Below are positions 14,674 through 20,205 of a stretch of 64,000 bases of DNA, piece after piece (within the stretch, counting starts at the first letter, position 1; the number at the start of each line of letters is the position of its first letter). Below the pieces are notes generated by a model, which saw only the letters and a list, made by a program, of their open reading frames with translations, did no database searches and was not told the DNA's origin. The translations under genes and the position numbers were made by a program. Location of the stretch: contig NZ_LVWA01000005.1 in the NCBI RefSeq assembly GCF_001907195.1, positions 310,001 to 374,000 on the forward strand, in the 5' to 3' direction. Source of the DNA: Pontibacter flavimaris (GTDB lineage: Bacteria > Bacteroidota > Bacteroidia > Cytophagales > Hymenobacteraceae).

Positions 14674-14760
14674 GGAGAGGTGGGTGAGTGGCTTAAACCA
14701 GCAGTTTGCTAAACTGCCGTACTGGTAACGGTACCGGGGGTTCGAATCCCCCCTTCTCCG
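14674..14760 (+). tRNA. tRNA-Ser(GCT)
   Basis: 87 nt. Acceptor stem GGAGAGG / CTTCTCC with discriminator G. The anticodon stem GCAGT/ACTGC encloses the loop TTGCTAA with anticodon GCT at 14708-14710. A long variable arm (ACTGGTAACGGTACC region) marks a class II tRNA. The T-loop is GGTTCGAATCC-like. No CCA is encoded. Confidence 0.95.
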
Positions 14761-14796
14761 CTGTAAGATGACGATGAAAAAAAGTTAAAAAAAGCT

Positions 14797-14826
14797 TTTG
14801 CAATCTGAAATCTTCACTTACCTTTG
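14797..14826 (+). promoter_or_regulatory. Bacteroidota-type promoter of tRNA-Pro
   Basis: -33 TTTG at 14797-14800, an 18-nt spacer, and -7 TACCTTTG at 14819-14826, a full match to TAnnTTTG. tRNA-Pro begins 57 nt downstream. Confidence 0.7.
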
Positions 14827-14883
14827 CATCGCAATCAGATAAAACAGTTTAAACAACGGCTAGTCTGAAAGCGAAAAATAGTT

Positions 14884-14957
14884 CGGGGTGTAGCGTAGCC
14901 CGGTATCGCGCCACATTTGGGATGTGGAGGTCGTAGGTTCGAATCCTGCCACCCCGA
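14884..14957 (+). tRNA. tRNA-Pro(TGG)
   Basis: 74 nt. Acceptor CGGGGTG/CACCCCG with discriminator A. Anticodon stem CCACA/TGTGG, loop TTTGGGA, anticodon TGG at 14918-14920, T-loop GGTTCGAATCC. CCA is not encoded. Confidence 0.95.
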
Positions 14958-14959
14958 CT

Positions 14960-14991
14960 AAAAAATTTCGGAAGAGATTCCGAAATTTTTT
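14960..14991 (+). terminator. Terminator after tRNA-Pro
   Basis: Perfect 14-bp inverted repeat AAAAAATTTCGGAA - GAGA - TTCCGAAATTTTTT, ending in six Ts. Confidence 0.9.
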
Positions 14992-15028
14992 GTTTAAAGG
15001 GTAGAGCAACGCTCTCCCGACGAACGCT

Positions 15029-15102
15029 GGTCTCGTAGCTCAGCTGGATAGAGCAACTGCCTTCTAAGCAGTAGGTCTTAGGTTCGAATCCTAACGGGAT
15101 CA
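15029..15102 (+). tRNA. tRNA-Arg(TCT)
   Basis: 74 nt. Acceptor GGTCTCG/CGGGATC (with G-U pairs) and discriminator A. Anticodon stem ACTGC/GCAGT, loop CTTCTAA, anticodon TCT at 15063-15065, T-loop GGTTCGAATCC. No CCA is encoded. A small AGAGC/GCTCT hairpin precedes it at about 15003-15015. Confidence 0.95.
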
Positions 15103-15247: not shown

Positions 15248-16549
15248 TTAGGCCTGGGAAAGTATAGCTTTCAACTCTTCAAACCTGTTCTGCATCGGCA
15301 CGATGTGCTCCTGCTTTTCCGAAAACTCCTGTAGCCTGGCCGGGATGGAAATGGCTTCACCCAGCGTAGCTTCCATCACTTCCCTGAATTTGGCCGGATG
15401 CGCTGTTTCCAGAAAGACGGCAATGGCAGGTTCCGGGGCTTCGGCCAGGAATTTCCTGGCTCCGCTATAGGCCACCGCTCCGTGCGGGTCCAGCAGGTAG
15501 CCGTGCTGACGGTACACCTCCCGTATGGTTTTCCGGGTTTCCTCATCTGTAAAAGTATAGCCAGCGATGCGGCGGCGGAACTGCTCAAGCTCCCCTCCAA
15601 ATAAGGCTTCCATGCGCGCGAAGTTGCTGGGGCTGCCCACGTCCATGGCGTTGCTGATGGTCTGCACCGATGACCTGGGAGAGTACAGGCCGGTTTGCAG
15701 GTACTGCGGCACGACATTGTTGGCGTTGGTGGCGGCCACAAAGCGGTGTACCGGCAGGCCCATGGCGGCAGCCAGTAGCCCACCGGTCAGGTTGCCGAAG
15801 TTGCCGCTGGGCACGCTGAACACGATGGGTTTGCCCTGCTGCTGCAGCTGTCCATACGCATAAAAGTAATAGAACGACTGCGGGATGAGCCGGGCAATGT
15901 TGATGCTGTTGGCCGAGGTAATCCGGCCTTGCCGGTTCAGCTCTTTATCTGCCAGGGCCTGTTTGGCTAATTGCTGGCAGTCGTCGAAGGTGCCTTCTAC
16001 CTCAATGGCCGTGATGTTATCGCCCCACGTGGTCAGTTGTTTCTGCTGCAACGGGCTTACCTTCCCTTTTGGAAAAAGAATGTATACCTGTATACCCGGC
16101 ACGTTGTGAAAACCAGCGGCCACCGCGCTACCCGTGTCGCCAGAGGTAGCCACGATCACCTTCATCTCTCCGCTTTTGTCTTGGGTGAAGTAGGCCATCA
16201 GGCGCGACATAAAGCGGGCTCCCACATCCTTGAACGCCATCGTGGGGCCGTGGAACAGCTCCAGGCTGTAAACATCCTTTTCCACTTCCACCAGCGGGAT
16301 CTCAAAGTTCAGGGTTTCCTCCACCAAGGGTTTAAGTACATGCGCAGGAACATCTTCCAGCAGAAAAGCGGATGCTACCGTGAAGGCTATTTCCGGCAGG
16401 GACAGCTGGTGTAGTTGCTCAAAAAAAGAAGCCGGGAGCACAGGTATAGACGCGGGCATGTATAAACCCCCATCCTCGGCCAGCCCCTTTAACACGGCCT
16501 GTTTCAGAGGTACGGAAGTGGTTTGTTGGCTAGTGCTGCTGAAATGCAT
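15248..16549 (-). CDS. thrC: Threonine synthase
   Basis: 433 residues, the usual length for the PLP-dependent enzyme that turns O-phosphohomoserine into threonine. The PLP lysine is Lys107 in GPTMAFKDVGARF; ATSGDTGSA and VPSGNFGN are the phosphate-binding loops. It is last in thrA-thrB-thrC. Its ATG overlaps the thrB stop by one base (TAATG at 16551-16547), so the two are translationally coupled. Expression is expected to depend on the attenuator upstream of thrA. Confidence 0.96.
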   Translation of the reverse strand: MHFSSTSQQTTSVPLKQAVLKGLAEDGGLYMPASIPVLPASFFEQLHQLSLPEIAFTVASAFLLEDVPAHVLKPLVEETLNFEIPLVEVEKDVYSLELFHGPTMAFKDVGARFMSRLMAYFTQDKSGEMKVIVATSGDTGSAVAAGFHNVPGIQVYILFPKGKVSPLQQKQLTTWGDNITAIEVEGTFDDCQQLAKQALADKELNRQGRITSANSINIARLIPQSFYYFYAYGQLQQQGKPIVFSVPSGNFGNLTGGLLAAAMGLPVHRFVAATNANNVVPQYLQTGLYSPRSSVQTISNAMDVGSPSNFARMEALFGGELEQFRRRIAGYTFTDEETRKTIREVYRQHGYLLDPHGAVAYSGARKFLAEAPEPAIAVFLETAHPAKFREVMEATLGEAISIPARLQEFSEKQEHIVPMQNRFEELKAILSQA

Positions 16550-17502
16550 TATTCTTTGGTTGAAACGGGTTGAACGTATTTTACTACTGGCCCCTGCAGG
16601 TTGATCTCCGATACAAAGACAGTACTGCCAATGCCCGCCTCGGTGAGTTTTGCCTCCAGGGCAACTGTCACGTTATGGGCAACGGCCTTGTTGCTGCACA
16701 ACGCAAACACGGAAGGACCCGAGCCGGATATGCCGAAGCCGAGCGCCTGCTGCTCCAGCGCTAGCTGGCGCAGTTCAGCAAAGCAGGGAATGAGCATGGC
16801 GCGCATCGGCTCGATCACCACATCCTGCATGCTCCGGCTGATCAGGCTAAGATCGTTGGTGCAGAAGCCTGCCACCAGTCCTGCCACGTTACCCCATTGC
16901 GTCACGGCATCCCGGAGCGGTACGTGCGTCTTCAGGATCTGCCTTGCCTCTCGTGTCGGGATCTCCACATGCGGGTACACCAGCGCGCAGGCCAGCCCGT
17001 GTGGCACCGGCAGCCGGACCACATCCAGTGGGTTGTAGCTGCGTACCAGCACCAGGCCACCCAGCAGGGCAGGGGCCACATTATCGGCGTGGGCGTTGCC
17101 ACAGGCCAGTCTTTCCCCTTCCATGGCGAAAGGCAGGAGCTGTTCTCTTGTCAGGGGCTGGCCCATCAGCTCATTGATCGCTACCAGGCCGGCCACAGCA
17201 CTGGCAGAACTGGAGCCCAGGCCGCTGCCAAAGGGCATATTTTTGTACAGCTCTATACTTACTCCCTGCGCAATACCTAGATGCCGGAGGTAATCGATCA
17301 CCACAGCGCTCACCGTGTTCTTTTCGGGTTCGCGGGGCAGCCGGCCCTCGTCTCCCTCCAGCACATCCAGCGTCACCTGGCTGCTGTCGTTCAGGTGCAT
17401 GATCACTTCATCACCTGGCGCATTTACGGCAAGGCCCAGTACATCATAGCCGCAGCTCAGGTTGGCTACGGTGGCCGGTGCAAATACTTTTATTGATCTC
17501 AT
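16549..17502 (-). CDS. thrB: Homoserine kinase
   Basis: 317 residues, GHMP kinase superfamily. It phosphorylates homoserine with ATP in the cytosol. The GHMP ATP-binding loop PFGSGLGSSSASA is at about 91-103; the N-terminal VFAPATVANLSCGYDVLG and C-terminal GFGISGSGPSVFAL motifs are both present. It lies 18 nt after thrA and overlaps thrC by one base. No abnormal features. Confidence 0.96.
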   Translation of the reverse strand: MRSIKVFAPATVANLSCGYDVLGLAVNAPGDEVIMHLNDSSQVTLDVLEGDEGRLPREPEKNTVSAVVIDYLRHLGIAQGVSIELYKNMPFGSGLGSSSASAVAGLVAINELMGQPLTREQLLPFAMEGERLACGNAHADNVAPALLGGLVLVRSYNPLDVVRLPVPHGLACALVYPHVEIPTREARQILKTHVPLRDAVTQWGNVAGLVAGFCTNDLSLISRSMQDVVIEPMRAMLIPCFAELRQLALEQQALGFGISGSGPSVFALCSNKAVAHNVTVALEAKLTEAGIGSTVFVSEINLQGPVVKYVQPVSTKE

Positions 17503-17520
17503 AATTGAATATCATTTTAG

Positions 17521-19971
17521 TTAATGGGCTGCCACCCGGACCAGATCTGCCAGCACGCCAGCCGCAGTTACCTCGGCTCCCGCTCCGGGTCCTTTGATCA
17601 CCATCGGGTTGAGGCGATAGCGGTCGGTGGTAAAGGAGATGATGTTGTCGCTGCCGGAAAGGCTGTAGAAGGGATGCTGAGGACCAGCCATGACCAGCTC
17701 TACCTTTACCTTCCCTTCCTCCAGCGAACCAATGTAGCGCAGCGCCTTTCCTGTGGCAGTAGCCTCTTCTTTCAACCGGGAAAAGTATGGCTCCGATTTC
17801 TCCAGCTCCTGGTAAAAAGCCTCTACCGTGGGGGCCGCAATGCAACTCTCCGGAAGGATGGGCTCTATCTGCACATCCTGCAGCTCTACCGGCAACCCTG
17901 TTTCGCGGGCCAGGATCAGCATTTTCCGGGCGAAGTCCAGCCCGCTGAGGTCATCGCGCGGGTCTGGCTCGGTAAAGCCTTTCTGCTGTGCCTCCCGCAC
18001 TACTTCTGCAAACGTTCTGTCGCCTTTGTACTCGTTGAAAATGTAAGAGATGGTGCCGGAAAGTATGGCTTCGATCTTCAGCACCTGGTCTCCGCTGATG
18101 AGCAGGTCGTGCAGCGTCTTGATGATCGGCAGCCCCGCACCAACGTTCGTCTCAAAGAGGTAGTCCACGCCATACTTGCGTACTGCCTGCTTGTCTTTGT
18201 AGTAGTCAGAAAAGGTGCCGCAGTTGCGGATCTTGTTGCAGGTCACCACTGAAAAGCTTTGCTTAAACAGTTGCCTGTAAGTACCAGCCACATCGGCGCT
18301 GCCTGTATTGTCGATAAAGACGGAGTTGGGCAGGTTGAGCGATACCGCCTGTTCCAGGAAACGCTCCAGGCTGGCCTGCTCCCCATGTTCCACGAGCTCA
18401 TCCTGCCAGTCTTTCAGGCTGATGCCGTCGCGGTTCCAGAGCATACTTCTGCTGTTGCATACCCCTACCAAGTTAACCTTCAGGTGCCGGCTGGCCTGCA
18501 AGTGCTCCTGGTGCTGCTCCAACTGCCTAAGCAATGTAGCGCCGATGTTGCCGGTGCCGCAGCAGTACACGTTCAGCGTTTTCAGAGGTGACAGAAACAG
18601 CGCATCATGCACGGAGTTAAGTGCCTTGGAGATATCTTCACTGCTCACCACCACCGAAATATTAAGTTCGGAGGAGCCCTGTGCAATAGCGCTTACGTTC
18701 ACGCCGCTGCGCCCGAGGGCACTGAAGAGCTTGCCCGATAAGCCGATAGCCTGTTTCATGTTCTCGCCAACCACTGCCATCACGCTGTACCCTTCCTCAA
18801 CGGAAGGTGGGGAAAGCTTACCCGCCAGCAATTCATACCTGAACTCCGCTTCGAGGGCCTTTCTGGCAACAGGGGCATCCTTTGGCGATACAGCCAGCGT
18901 GATACTGTGCTCCGAGCTGGCCTGTGTGATCAGGATGACGTTAACACCTACCTGCGCCAGGGCGCTGAACAGCCGGCCGCTAAAGCCCTTGTACCCCACC
19001 ATCCCGCCACCCTGTACAGTCAGTAGGCTTACAGCAGGTATGGAGGTGATGCCCTTCACCAACGAGCCATTCACGGAGGACTGCGCACCGATGGCGGTTC
19101 CTGCAAAGGATGGGTTGAAGGTGTTTTTCACCACGATCGGGATCTTACGGGCAATGGCCGGAAGCATGGTAGGCGGGTGCACCACCTTGGCGCCAAAGTA
19201 AGACAGCTCGATGGCCTCGTTGTAAGACAGCTGTTTGAGCGGGAAAGCCTTTTTTACCAGCCGTGGATCTGCTGTCATAAAGCCGTCCACATCGGTCCAG
19301 ATCTGTACTTCGTCGGCGCCCACGGCGGCACCTACCAGGGCGGCAGTATAATCGGAGCCGCCGCGGCCCAGAGTAGTGGTGTTGCCCTGGTGGTCGGAGG
19401 CGATAAATCCTGTGATAACCGGTATTGCCCCGCTAAGTTGGCTGAAGTACGCCCGCACCAACTCATATGTGCGCGCCTCATCAACGGTGACTCTGCCGTA
19501 ATTGCTGTCTGTTTTGATAAGTTGCCTGGCATCGGCAAAAACCGCATTGACGCCGTGTTGCCTCAGCACATGCGCCACCGTATAGTTAGAGCACAGTTCG
19601 CCGTAGGCAACCAGCCGGTCGCTGGTTCGTGGAGAGGCTTCTCCCAATGCTTTTATCCCAGCCAGGATTTCCTCCAGTTCATTAAAGTATAGCCGGAGAC
19701 CCAGCAAGGCAATGTTCTGATGCTTTACCTCCAGCAATTCCTTTACAAGCTCAAAGTGGCGGTCCTCAATCGTTTTCAGCCCGGTTCCAAACTCTTTTCC
19801 TGCCGCTGCCTCCGTCACAAGCTGCAGCAGCGTGTTGGTTACGCCACTCAGGGCGGAGCAAACCAGGGCAACTGGCTCGCCTCTTTGTTGTTGCTCTTTT
19901 ACTAGTTGCACCAGTGTGCTGATCGACTGCGCCGAGCCAACCGAGGTGCCTCCGAATTTCAGGATTTTCAT
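17521..19971 (-). CDS. thrA: Bifunctional aspartate kinase / homoserine dehydrogenase I
   Basis: 816 residues. The N-terminal aspartokinase domain begins KFGGTSVG (residues 5-12). Two ACT-type regulatory repeats follow at about 310-460 (VQGGGMVGYKGFSG..., MAVVGENMKQAIGLSGKLF...). The homoserine dehydrogenase domain starts near 465 with the NAD(P) motif CCGTGNIGATLL and includes CNKIRN and EAILSGTISYIFNEY. It catalyses the first and third steps of the threonine/methionine branch and is expected to be threonine-inhibited through ACT. It is the first gene of thrABC; a leader peptide and terminator lie directly upstream. Confidence 0.96.
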   Translation of the reverse strand: MKILKFGGTSVGSAQSISTLVQLVKEQQQRGEPVALVCSALSGVTNTLLQLVTEAAAGKEFGTGLKTIEDRHFELVKELLEVKHQNIALLGLRLYFNELEEILAGIKALGEASPRTSDRLVAYGELCSNYTVAHVLRQHGVNAVFADARQLIKTDSNYGRVTVDEARTYELVRAYFSQLSGAIPVITGFIASDHQGNTTTLGRGGSDYTAALVGAAVGADEVQIWTDVDGFMTADPRLVKKAFPLKQLSYNEAIELSYFGAKVVHPPTMLPAIARKIPIVVKNTFNPSFAGTAIGAQSSVNGSLVKGITSIPAVSLLTVQGGGMVGYKGFSGRLFSALAQVGVNVILITQASSEHSITLAVSPKDAPVARKALEAEFRYELLAGKLSPPSVEEGYSVMAVVGENMKQAIGLSGKLFSALGRSGVNVSAIAQGSSELNISVVVSSEDISKALNSVHDALFLSPLKTLNVYCCGTGNIGATLLRQLEQHQEHLQASRHLKVNLVGVCNSRSMLWNRDGISLKDWQDELVEHGEQASLERFLEQAVSLNLPNSVFIDNTGSADVAGTYRQLFKQSFSVVTCNKIRNCGTFSDYYKDKQAVRKYGVDYLFETNVGAGLPIIKTLHDLLISGDQVLKIEAILSGTISYIFNEYKGDRTFAEVVREAQQKGFTEPDPRDDLSGLDFARKMLILARETGLPVELQDVQIEPILPESCIAAPTVEAFYQELEKSEPYFSRLKEEATATGKALRYIGSLEEGKVKVELVMAGPQHPFYSLSGSDNIISFTTDRYRLNPMVIKGPGAGAEVTAAGVLADLVRVAAH

Positions 19972-19990
19972 GTTGTACAGGGGTTAAAAC

Positions 19991-20026
19991 AAAAAAGCCT
20001 TCCCCGTTTCTGAGGAAGGCTTTTTT
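19991..20026 (-). terminator. Attenuator terminator of the thr operon
   Basis: Perfect 13-bp inverted repeat AAAAAAGCCTTCC / GGAAGGCTTTTTT with a 10-nt loop. Read on the minus strand it ends in six Ts and stands 19 nt before the thrA ATG and 21 nt after the thrL stop. No other gene ends here, so it must lie inside the thr transcript. The leader segment TGGGGAA (thrL codons 31-33) can pair with TTCCTCA at the 5' arm, a possible antiterminator. Confidence 0.85.
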
Positions 20027-20047
20027 GCAGTTTATGATATGGTTATT

Positions 20048-20170
20048 TTAACTCATACTGCTGTCATATTCTTTTCCCCATGTGCAATAGCCTGTTGTGC
20101 CGGTAATCGTAATGATCCCGGTGGTCGTATTGGTAATGGTAGAAAACAGGTGGTTGCTCATAGGTTGCAT
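20048..20170 (-). CDS. thrL: Threonine operon leader peptide
   Basis: 40-codon frame (37 if the second ATG at 20161 is used). Codons 11-26 encode a regulatory run of Thr and Ile (STITNTTTGIITITGTTG): 9 Thr and 4 Ile within 17 residues, using mostly ACC/ACG/ACA and ATT/ATC. Such a composition before thrA is the hallmark of the translation-coupled attenuator known from enterobacterial thrL. When charged tRNA-Thr or tRNA-Ile is scarce, the ribosome would stall there and the terminator at 19991-20026 would not form. The stop TAA at 20048-20050 is 21 nt before the terminator. A promoter-like TTG-N19-TTACTTTG upstream would start the RNA almost at the first ATG, favouring the second ATG as the start. 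Confidence 0.88.
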   Translation of the reverse strand: MQPMSNHLFSTITNTTTGIITITGTTGYCTWGKEYDSSMS

Positions 20171-20175
20171 GATGG

Positions 20176-20205
20176 CAAAGTAAGGCCTTTTTAATTATAT
20201 TCCAA
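20176..20205 (-). promoter_or_regulatory. Candidate promoter of the thr operon
   Basis: On the minus strand TTG (20205-20203), a 19-nt spacer, then TTACTTTG (20183-20176), one base off TAnnTTTG. The predicted start lies at about 20169, giving a nearly leaderless thrL. Confidence 0.5.

Follow-up and report, generated by a model that had tools for sequence, protein, structure and literature searches.

Control of an amino acid biosynthesis operon through the codons of its own leader peptide is a principle already known from E. coli thrL. Attenuators have reportedly also been predicted in some Bacteroidetes/Chlorobi, in work said to have been published by Vitreschak and colleagues (FEMS Microbiol Lett) in 2004. 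In a 2010 survey of terminators, leader peptides were reported from Proteobacteria, Actinobacteria and, newly there, Firmicutes only (PMC2965389), and, according to the main text of a study on F. psychrophilum, strong clues of leader-peptide attenuation exist upstream of amino acid operons in this bacterium (PMC9723704). A preliminary description of the locus presented here had called attenuation little documented in the phylum. It is indeed thinly documented, but the clues from F. psychrophilum, as given in that text, mean that the statement does not hold entirely. A described thr attenuator of Bacteroidota was not found in the open literature searched. What is new here is that such elements occur widely in the phylum with hardly any description. 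The locus is a clear and testable case of amino acid attenuation in Bacteroidota, where initiation of translation is not Shine-Dalgarno dependent.

The leader region of the Pontibacter thr operon

The window, that is, the whole 64-kb stretch of Pontibacter DNA that was analysed, contains thrA, thrB and thrC as one tight operon, with gene identities confirmed by curated models. The features of the operon and its leader are as follows.

20176..20205, minus strand: probable promoter, with -33 TTG (20205-20203), a 19-nt spacer and -7 TTACTTTG (20183-20176); sequence pattern
20048..20170, minus strand: leader peptide ORF of 40 codons, MQPMSNHLFSTITNTTTGIITITGTTGYCTWGKEYDSSMS; ORF call and translation
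20161, minus strand: alternative in-frame ATG of the leader ORF; the start of L007 aligns there
20145..20164, minus strand: protector hairpin strand 1, overlapping the second ATG; fold and compensatory changes
20090..20140, minus strand: regulatory codons 11-27, with 9 Thr and 4 Ile; translation, chance test and conservation
20100..20121, minus strand: small hairpin within the Thr/Ile codon run, CCGGGAUC-AUUAC-GAUUACCGG; alignment of 7 sequences
20077..20096, minus strand: protector hairpin strand 2, which at its 3' end overlaps the antiterminator strand; fold and compensatory changes
20074..20080, minus strand: antiterminator strand TGGGGAA; pairing with 20017-20011, covariation across the phylum and ribosome-mask folding
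19989..20028, minus strand: intrinsic terminator, 5' arm 20028-20012, 3' arm 20005-19989 with T6; fold and comparison
17521..19971, minus strand: thrA, bifunctional aspartate kinase/homoserine dehydrogenase I; NF006959, 994 bits, cut-off 726
16549..17502, minus strand: thrB, homoserine kinase; NF002288 and TIGR00191 above cut-off
15248..16549, minus strand: thrC, threonine synthase, sharing one base with thrB; TIGR00260 above cut-off

Beyond the end of thrC, the opposite strand carries three tRNA genes (14674-15102, plus strand).

Residues 11-27 of the leader read TITNTTTGIITITGTTG, and all 13 Thr/Ile codons of this run fall within codons 11-26. Among the 832 ORFs of 15-80 aa in the window, the leader ORF alone exceeded 9 Thr plus Ile per 17 residues, and the maximum reached by 59,210 ORFs from simulated sequence was 9, as compared with 13 in the leader. 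The stop codon ends at 20048 and is followed, after 21 nt, by a stem of 13 perfect pairs formed by AAAAAAGCCTTCC (20026-20014) and GGAAGGCTTTTTT (20003-19991) around the loop 20013-20004. Inner T-G and C-G pairs and outer C-G and G-T pairs extend it to 17 pairs (20028-20012/20005-19989), and from the 13-bp stem there are 19 nt to the thrA start at 19971. A simple terminator scan of the window did not return the hairpin between leader and thrA, which is present in the RNA fold; the folding energy of the leader RNA is 4.8 sd lower than that of shuffled sequences. Since the terminator is strong and only 19 nt are left for another promoter, all thrABC transcripts started upstream must cross it. 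Within the leader, TGGGGAA (20080-20074) can form 7 pairs, one of them G-U, with TTCCTCA (20017-20011) of the terminator 5' arm. The copy in the window is slightly weaker than those of its relatives, with AAAAG in place of AAAGG. The preliminary description had the composition of the 40-codon frame (9 Thr and 4 Ile in 17 residues) and the perfect 13-bp terminator with both distances exactly right, and its proposal that TGGGGAA pairs with the terminator 5' arm agrees with the 7 pairs found; its structural reading lacked the additional, covarying protector hairpin.

The sequence pattern at 20176..20205 is probably a -33/-7 promoter of the Bacteroidota type serving the leader. At a 19-nt spacing, about 1.4 occurrences of the pattern are expected by chance on both strands of the 64-kb window; the match just upstream of the leader, already noticed in the preliminary description as a fitting promoter, is therefore suggestive and not proof. 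The -7 box is separated from the first ATG by 5 nt, a distance that is constant in L001-L006, and a similar -7 box, TTTACTTTG, occurs in this genome's hisG leader. With a gap of 5 nt from the putative -7 box, the leader mRNA would be leaderless or nearly so. Leaderless mRNAs are a minority, of 5.5% in F. psychrophilum according to the main text of that study (PMC9723704), and 5' UTRs under 10 nt make up about 3.7% in B. thetaiotaomicron (PMC7366714). The sole start of L007 is aligned with the second ATG, and both the first and the second ATG are possible starts of the leader.

Conservation in Pontibacter and across Bacteroidota

As a check on its reading, the preliminary description had named an alignment of thrA upstream regions for Thr/Ile codons and terminator, and when this was run on Pontibacter and dozens of Bacteroidota, both recurred. 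In a further six Pontibacter genomes (L002-L007, thrA 73-88% identical), leader, TGGGGAA and terminator occupy the same position in front of thrA. At nine leader positions, every one of L001-L006 has Thr or Ile; Thr-Ile exchange is seen at three of these and nothing but synonymous change at two, so that Thr and Ile are swapped at conserved positions and the overall run is preserved. In seven close Pontibacter sequences, the terminator stem was 95.7% paired. The duplex TGGGGAA/TTCCTCA was paired in 93.9% of cells and nearly invariant; no covariation was found for it within these sequences and, given this invariance, covariation in the genus speaks neither for nor against the antiterminator. The protector helix (20164-20145 with 20096-20077) was 93.8% paired, with compensatory changes at 4 pairs; only 3 of 500 shuffles were as good, and a slide by one base brought pairing below 50%. 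The small hairpin inside the Thr/Ile codons, with 100% of cells paired and 2 covarying pairs, is possibly an RNA polymerase pause hairpin.

Four further Pontibacter loci (L009, L011, L012 and L014, thrA 54-55%) have differently worded leaders, e.g. MKATGTTIIISIINTIIGTMHGEGDYLV, and retain the Thr/Ile run, as CATGGGGAAGG or CATGGGAAGG, and a GCGCCTTCC terminator. No leader was found directly before thrA in L008, L010 and L013 (including P. ummariensis), where thrA lies behind other thr genes; here, a Thr/Ile leader, or a Thr/Ile run with a hairpin, precedes the upstream monofunctional aspartate kinase gene. Bifunctional thrA is patchy in the genus, with a match of at least 54% identity in only about 14 of 37 genomes. 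Five Pontibacter genomes carry an additional thrA copy of 40%, and the leader was absent in the four of these copies that were examined.

Across Bacteroidota, a Thr/Ile-rich leader with terminator was found at 57 thrA loci, Pontibacter included, out of 80 named loci, about 90 from a phylum-wide draw and the Pontibacter loci; because the named loci were picked for their similarity to the query, the counts do not measure prevalence. Positive loci belong to Pedobacter, Mucilaginibacter, Sphingobacterium, Olivibacter, Parapedobacter, Daejeonella, Pontibacter, Chryseobacterium, Epilithonimonas, Empedobacter, Hymenobacter sp. CRA2 and a Chitinophagaceae MAG, and the terminator type was absent at the surveyed thrA loci of Dyadobacter, Spirosoma, Larkinella, Emticicia and several MAG lineages. 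Thr and Ile account for 45% of all residues in the leaders of the 57 loci. Outside Pontibacter, the peptides have the Thr/Ile runs in common and are otherwise unrelated in sequence, as are the stems. On average, the antiterminator strand pairs better with its own terminator arm than with permuted arms (mean -11.3 kcal versus -9.9, with 0 of 5000 permutations as good), and with one representative for each of the 34 distinct arms the own arm was better by 2.3 kcal (z about -6.6). The matched strand/arm words vary by lineage, as expected because a functional antiterminator predicts such variation: they include GGAGGAAG/CTTCCTCC, CAGAAAGG/CCTTTCTG at the Chryseobacterium and Epilithonimonas loci L052 and L062, and CGGGAGC/GCTCCCG at the Pedobacter locus L055. 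The 57 loci are a ready family for the annotation of small leader ORFs and an RNA family missing from Rfam.

In Sphingobacteriaceae, the thr leaders L036-L043, L050, L059, L065, L069 and L113 contain a conserved AUGGUGUAA or AUGGUAUAA, i.e. a start codon, one codon and a stop, located between GGAGGAAG, a few nt upstream, and the terminator. A possible complementarity of AUGGUGUAA to the -7 region was discarded, because the -7 box is probably untranscribed.

Among 122 regions ahead of thrA in which the terminator type is absent, 33 contain a second class of leader, one of them (L079) perhaps by chance. Leaders of this class are Thr/Ile-rich ORFs leading into a perfect hairpin that extends across or touches the stop codon; the arrangement occurred 0 times in ten shuffled sets and 0 times on the reverse strand. 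In 22 of the 33, CATAT is found within the next 40 nt, mostly 8-11 nt past the hairpin, versus 8% expected. The arms of the hairpin are diverse (CCCC-GGGG, ACGGG-CCCGU, CAUGCCC-GGGCAUG), and a terminator search of these regions before thrA gave no stem with a T-run behind it. The loci include L145, L149, L150, L164, L176, L180, L104, L105, L110 and L019-L022. The module was also found before Pontibacter hisG and upstream aspartate kinase genes, sometimes with the stop beyond the hairpin.

In other Pontibacter, the leaders before monofunctional aspartate kinase genes (L246-L253) are of the second class, so both designs occur within one genus. The hisG leaders L200-L205 of Pontibacter, with L205 from the genome of the window, end in ...VHFHH[IF]HHSS or HHHFHHSS and a stop codon, which lies within TTCCTC-GTAA-GAGGAA and is followed in most by ATAT(T/C)GCCCC; the ending in the genome of the window is HVHFHHIHHSS. 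The Pontibacter trpE leaders L218-L223 read M[IT]QxxHxAWWWHV... The genome of the window (L221) has a WWWH leader in which GTGAACAGC stands opposite the terminator arm GCTGTTCAC; across these trpE leaders, the antiterminator facing this arm is GTGAACAGC or close to it. No convincing leader was found before Pontibacter ilvD and leuA. The presence of Trp and His leaders in the genome of the window indicates that the organism uses the strategy repeatedly. We propose, tentatively and with slightly more doubt than conviction, a phylum-wide set of leader-peptide attenuators for Thr/Ile (and His and Trp), with largely non-Shine-Dalgarno initiation and two architectures, one with a terminator and one terminator-less with CATAT. 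The terminator-less type would need another way of stopping or stalling transcription, by Rho or a hairpin-stabilised pause.

Predicted switching and alternative explanations

In the folding computations, the transcript was ended after strand 3 and a ribosome mask was moved codon by codon. Without a ribosome, the RNA of the window formed the protector with P 0.97 and the antiterminator with P 0.03. The antiterminator rose to P 0.79-0.91 with the A site at codons 6-27, and fell to P 0 from codon 28 on, where the strand itself is masked. At 56 of the 57 loci, P was at least 0.5 on a stall in the run and below 0.2 with the ribosome at the stop codon; median antitermination probabilities were 0.87 and 0.00, respectively, the outcome at the stop codon being partly due to the mask covering the antiterminator strand. 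In many Sphingobacteriaceae leaders, antitermination was predicted without a ribosome (median 0.73), and protector pairing is not general. The completed terminator was always the most stable form at equilibrium, and the antiterminator has only 7 bp with one G-U; the switch must therefore be co-transcriptional, i.e. kinetic. Classical attenuators likewise switch kinetically.

The window thus combines what an attenuator is expected to have: a conserved short ORF rich in codons for the end product (13 Thr/Ile in 17), an intrinsic terminator between this ORF and the first structural gene (17 pairs, T6), a protector (1:2) hairpin in Pontibacter, many other families having no predicted one, an antiterminator that, in silico, excludes the terminator and is gated by the ribosome, and controlled genes, thrA, thrB and thrC, that make the sensed amino acid. 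With a probability of about 0.92, we consider the element a ribosome-mediated transcription attenuator that senses charged tRNA-Thr/tRNA-Ile and controls thrABC. Sequence and comparison show the predicted peptide, the terminator, the antiterminator and the protector to be present and conserved; the coincidence of stall position with antitermination is a computed one. Thr/Ile attenuation of thrABC, as read in the preliminary description, is supported by conservation and folding, from which we infer that the leader is translated and regulates in the cell.

Transcription would start just upstream of the leader start codon, possibly at it. When Thr and Ile are ample, the ribosome would traverse the Thr/Ile codons to the stop, and behind it strand 1 would re-pair with strand 2 and sequester TGGGG, allowing the terminator to form and RNA polymerase to be released 19 nt before thrA. 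The protector hairpin, with its compensatory changes, would explain termination without stalling. When Thr or Ile is scarce, the ribosome would stall at codons 11-26 and keep strands 1 and 2 separated; the free TGGGGAA could then pair with TTCCTCA in the terminator 5' arm at a time when the 3' arm has yet to be transcribed, giving read-through into thrABC. Classical attenuation needs the leading ribosome close to RNA polymerase, and a thr attenuator, if working, would be evidence for transcription-translation coupling in Bacteroidota.

The covarying hairpins of the leader could instead be the binding site of a trans factor or ligand (an RNA-binding protein or a riboswitch) that controls the terminator, the Thr/Ile codons being incidental. 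This is very improbable, given that the window contains no Rfam riboswitch, that the Thr/Ile codons are preserved while the RNA upstream of the antiterminator diverges, and that the predicted stall window coincides with the Thr/Ile run. We give equally little weight to a mainly trans-acting role of the terminated leader RNA or its peptide, with cis attenuation secondary: the predicted terminated RNA of about 180-190 nt with a translated ORF would suit it, and the trp leader peptide peTrpL of Sinorhizobium meliloti, as far as it is described in PMC7298713, is a precedent, but nothing points to a trans target, the peptide beyond Thr/Ile is not conserved outside the genus, and such a role would be compatible with attenuation anyway. 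An ORF plus terminator is the anatomy of a small gene too, but a separate gene for a small protein, ending in a terminator of its own and unrelated to thrABC control, is barely credible here: the peptides outside the genus are alike in their Thr/Ile runs only, the ORF stays ahead of the first thr gene and its end coevolves with the terminator arm, and there is no space for a second promoter before thrA.

Comparison with known leaders

The covariance model of Thr_leader (RF00506) scored 30.7 bits in the window, below the gathering score of 55 and on the terminator only; it scored 25.4 bits on the opposite strand and 46.8 bits in the best relative (L044). Membership in this family was rejected, as the sub-threshold matches reflect the terminator stem and appear also in antisense, and hence do not indicate homology. 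At gathering score, no Rfam family was found at the leader/terminator element.

The Bacteroid-trp RNA (RF01692; PMC2864571) is similar in being a candidate cis-regulatory RNA of Bacteroidetes associated, by name, with an amino acid operon, but its model had no match in the window or in the four Pontibacter trp leaders tested. The clues from F. psychrophilum are closer, with the same phylum, amino acid biosynthesis operons, structured 5' regions and short ORFs; unlike the analysis of Pontibacter, the main text of that study names no thr element and contains no antiterminator analysis (PMC9723704). Leaderless leader peptides of the peTrpL type, as far as PMC7298713 describes them, share a leader ORF at or near the 5' end of the transcript, whereas the near-leaderless start in Pontibacter is deduced from the promoter pattern and the true start may be the second ATG. 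Compared with E. coli thrL, the Pontibacter leader has no detectable sequence homology, it leaves little or no room for a Shine-Dalgarno sequence before the start, and its strand 1 covers the region of the start codon. Like thrL, the Pontibacter leader would control thrABC through many Thr and some Ile codons by the logic of ribosome stalling, and protector, antiterminator and terminator are all present in both.
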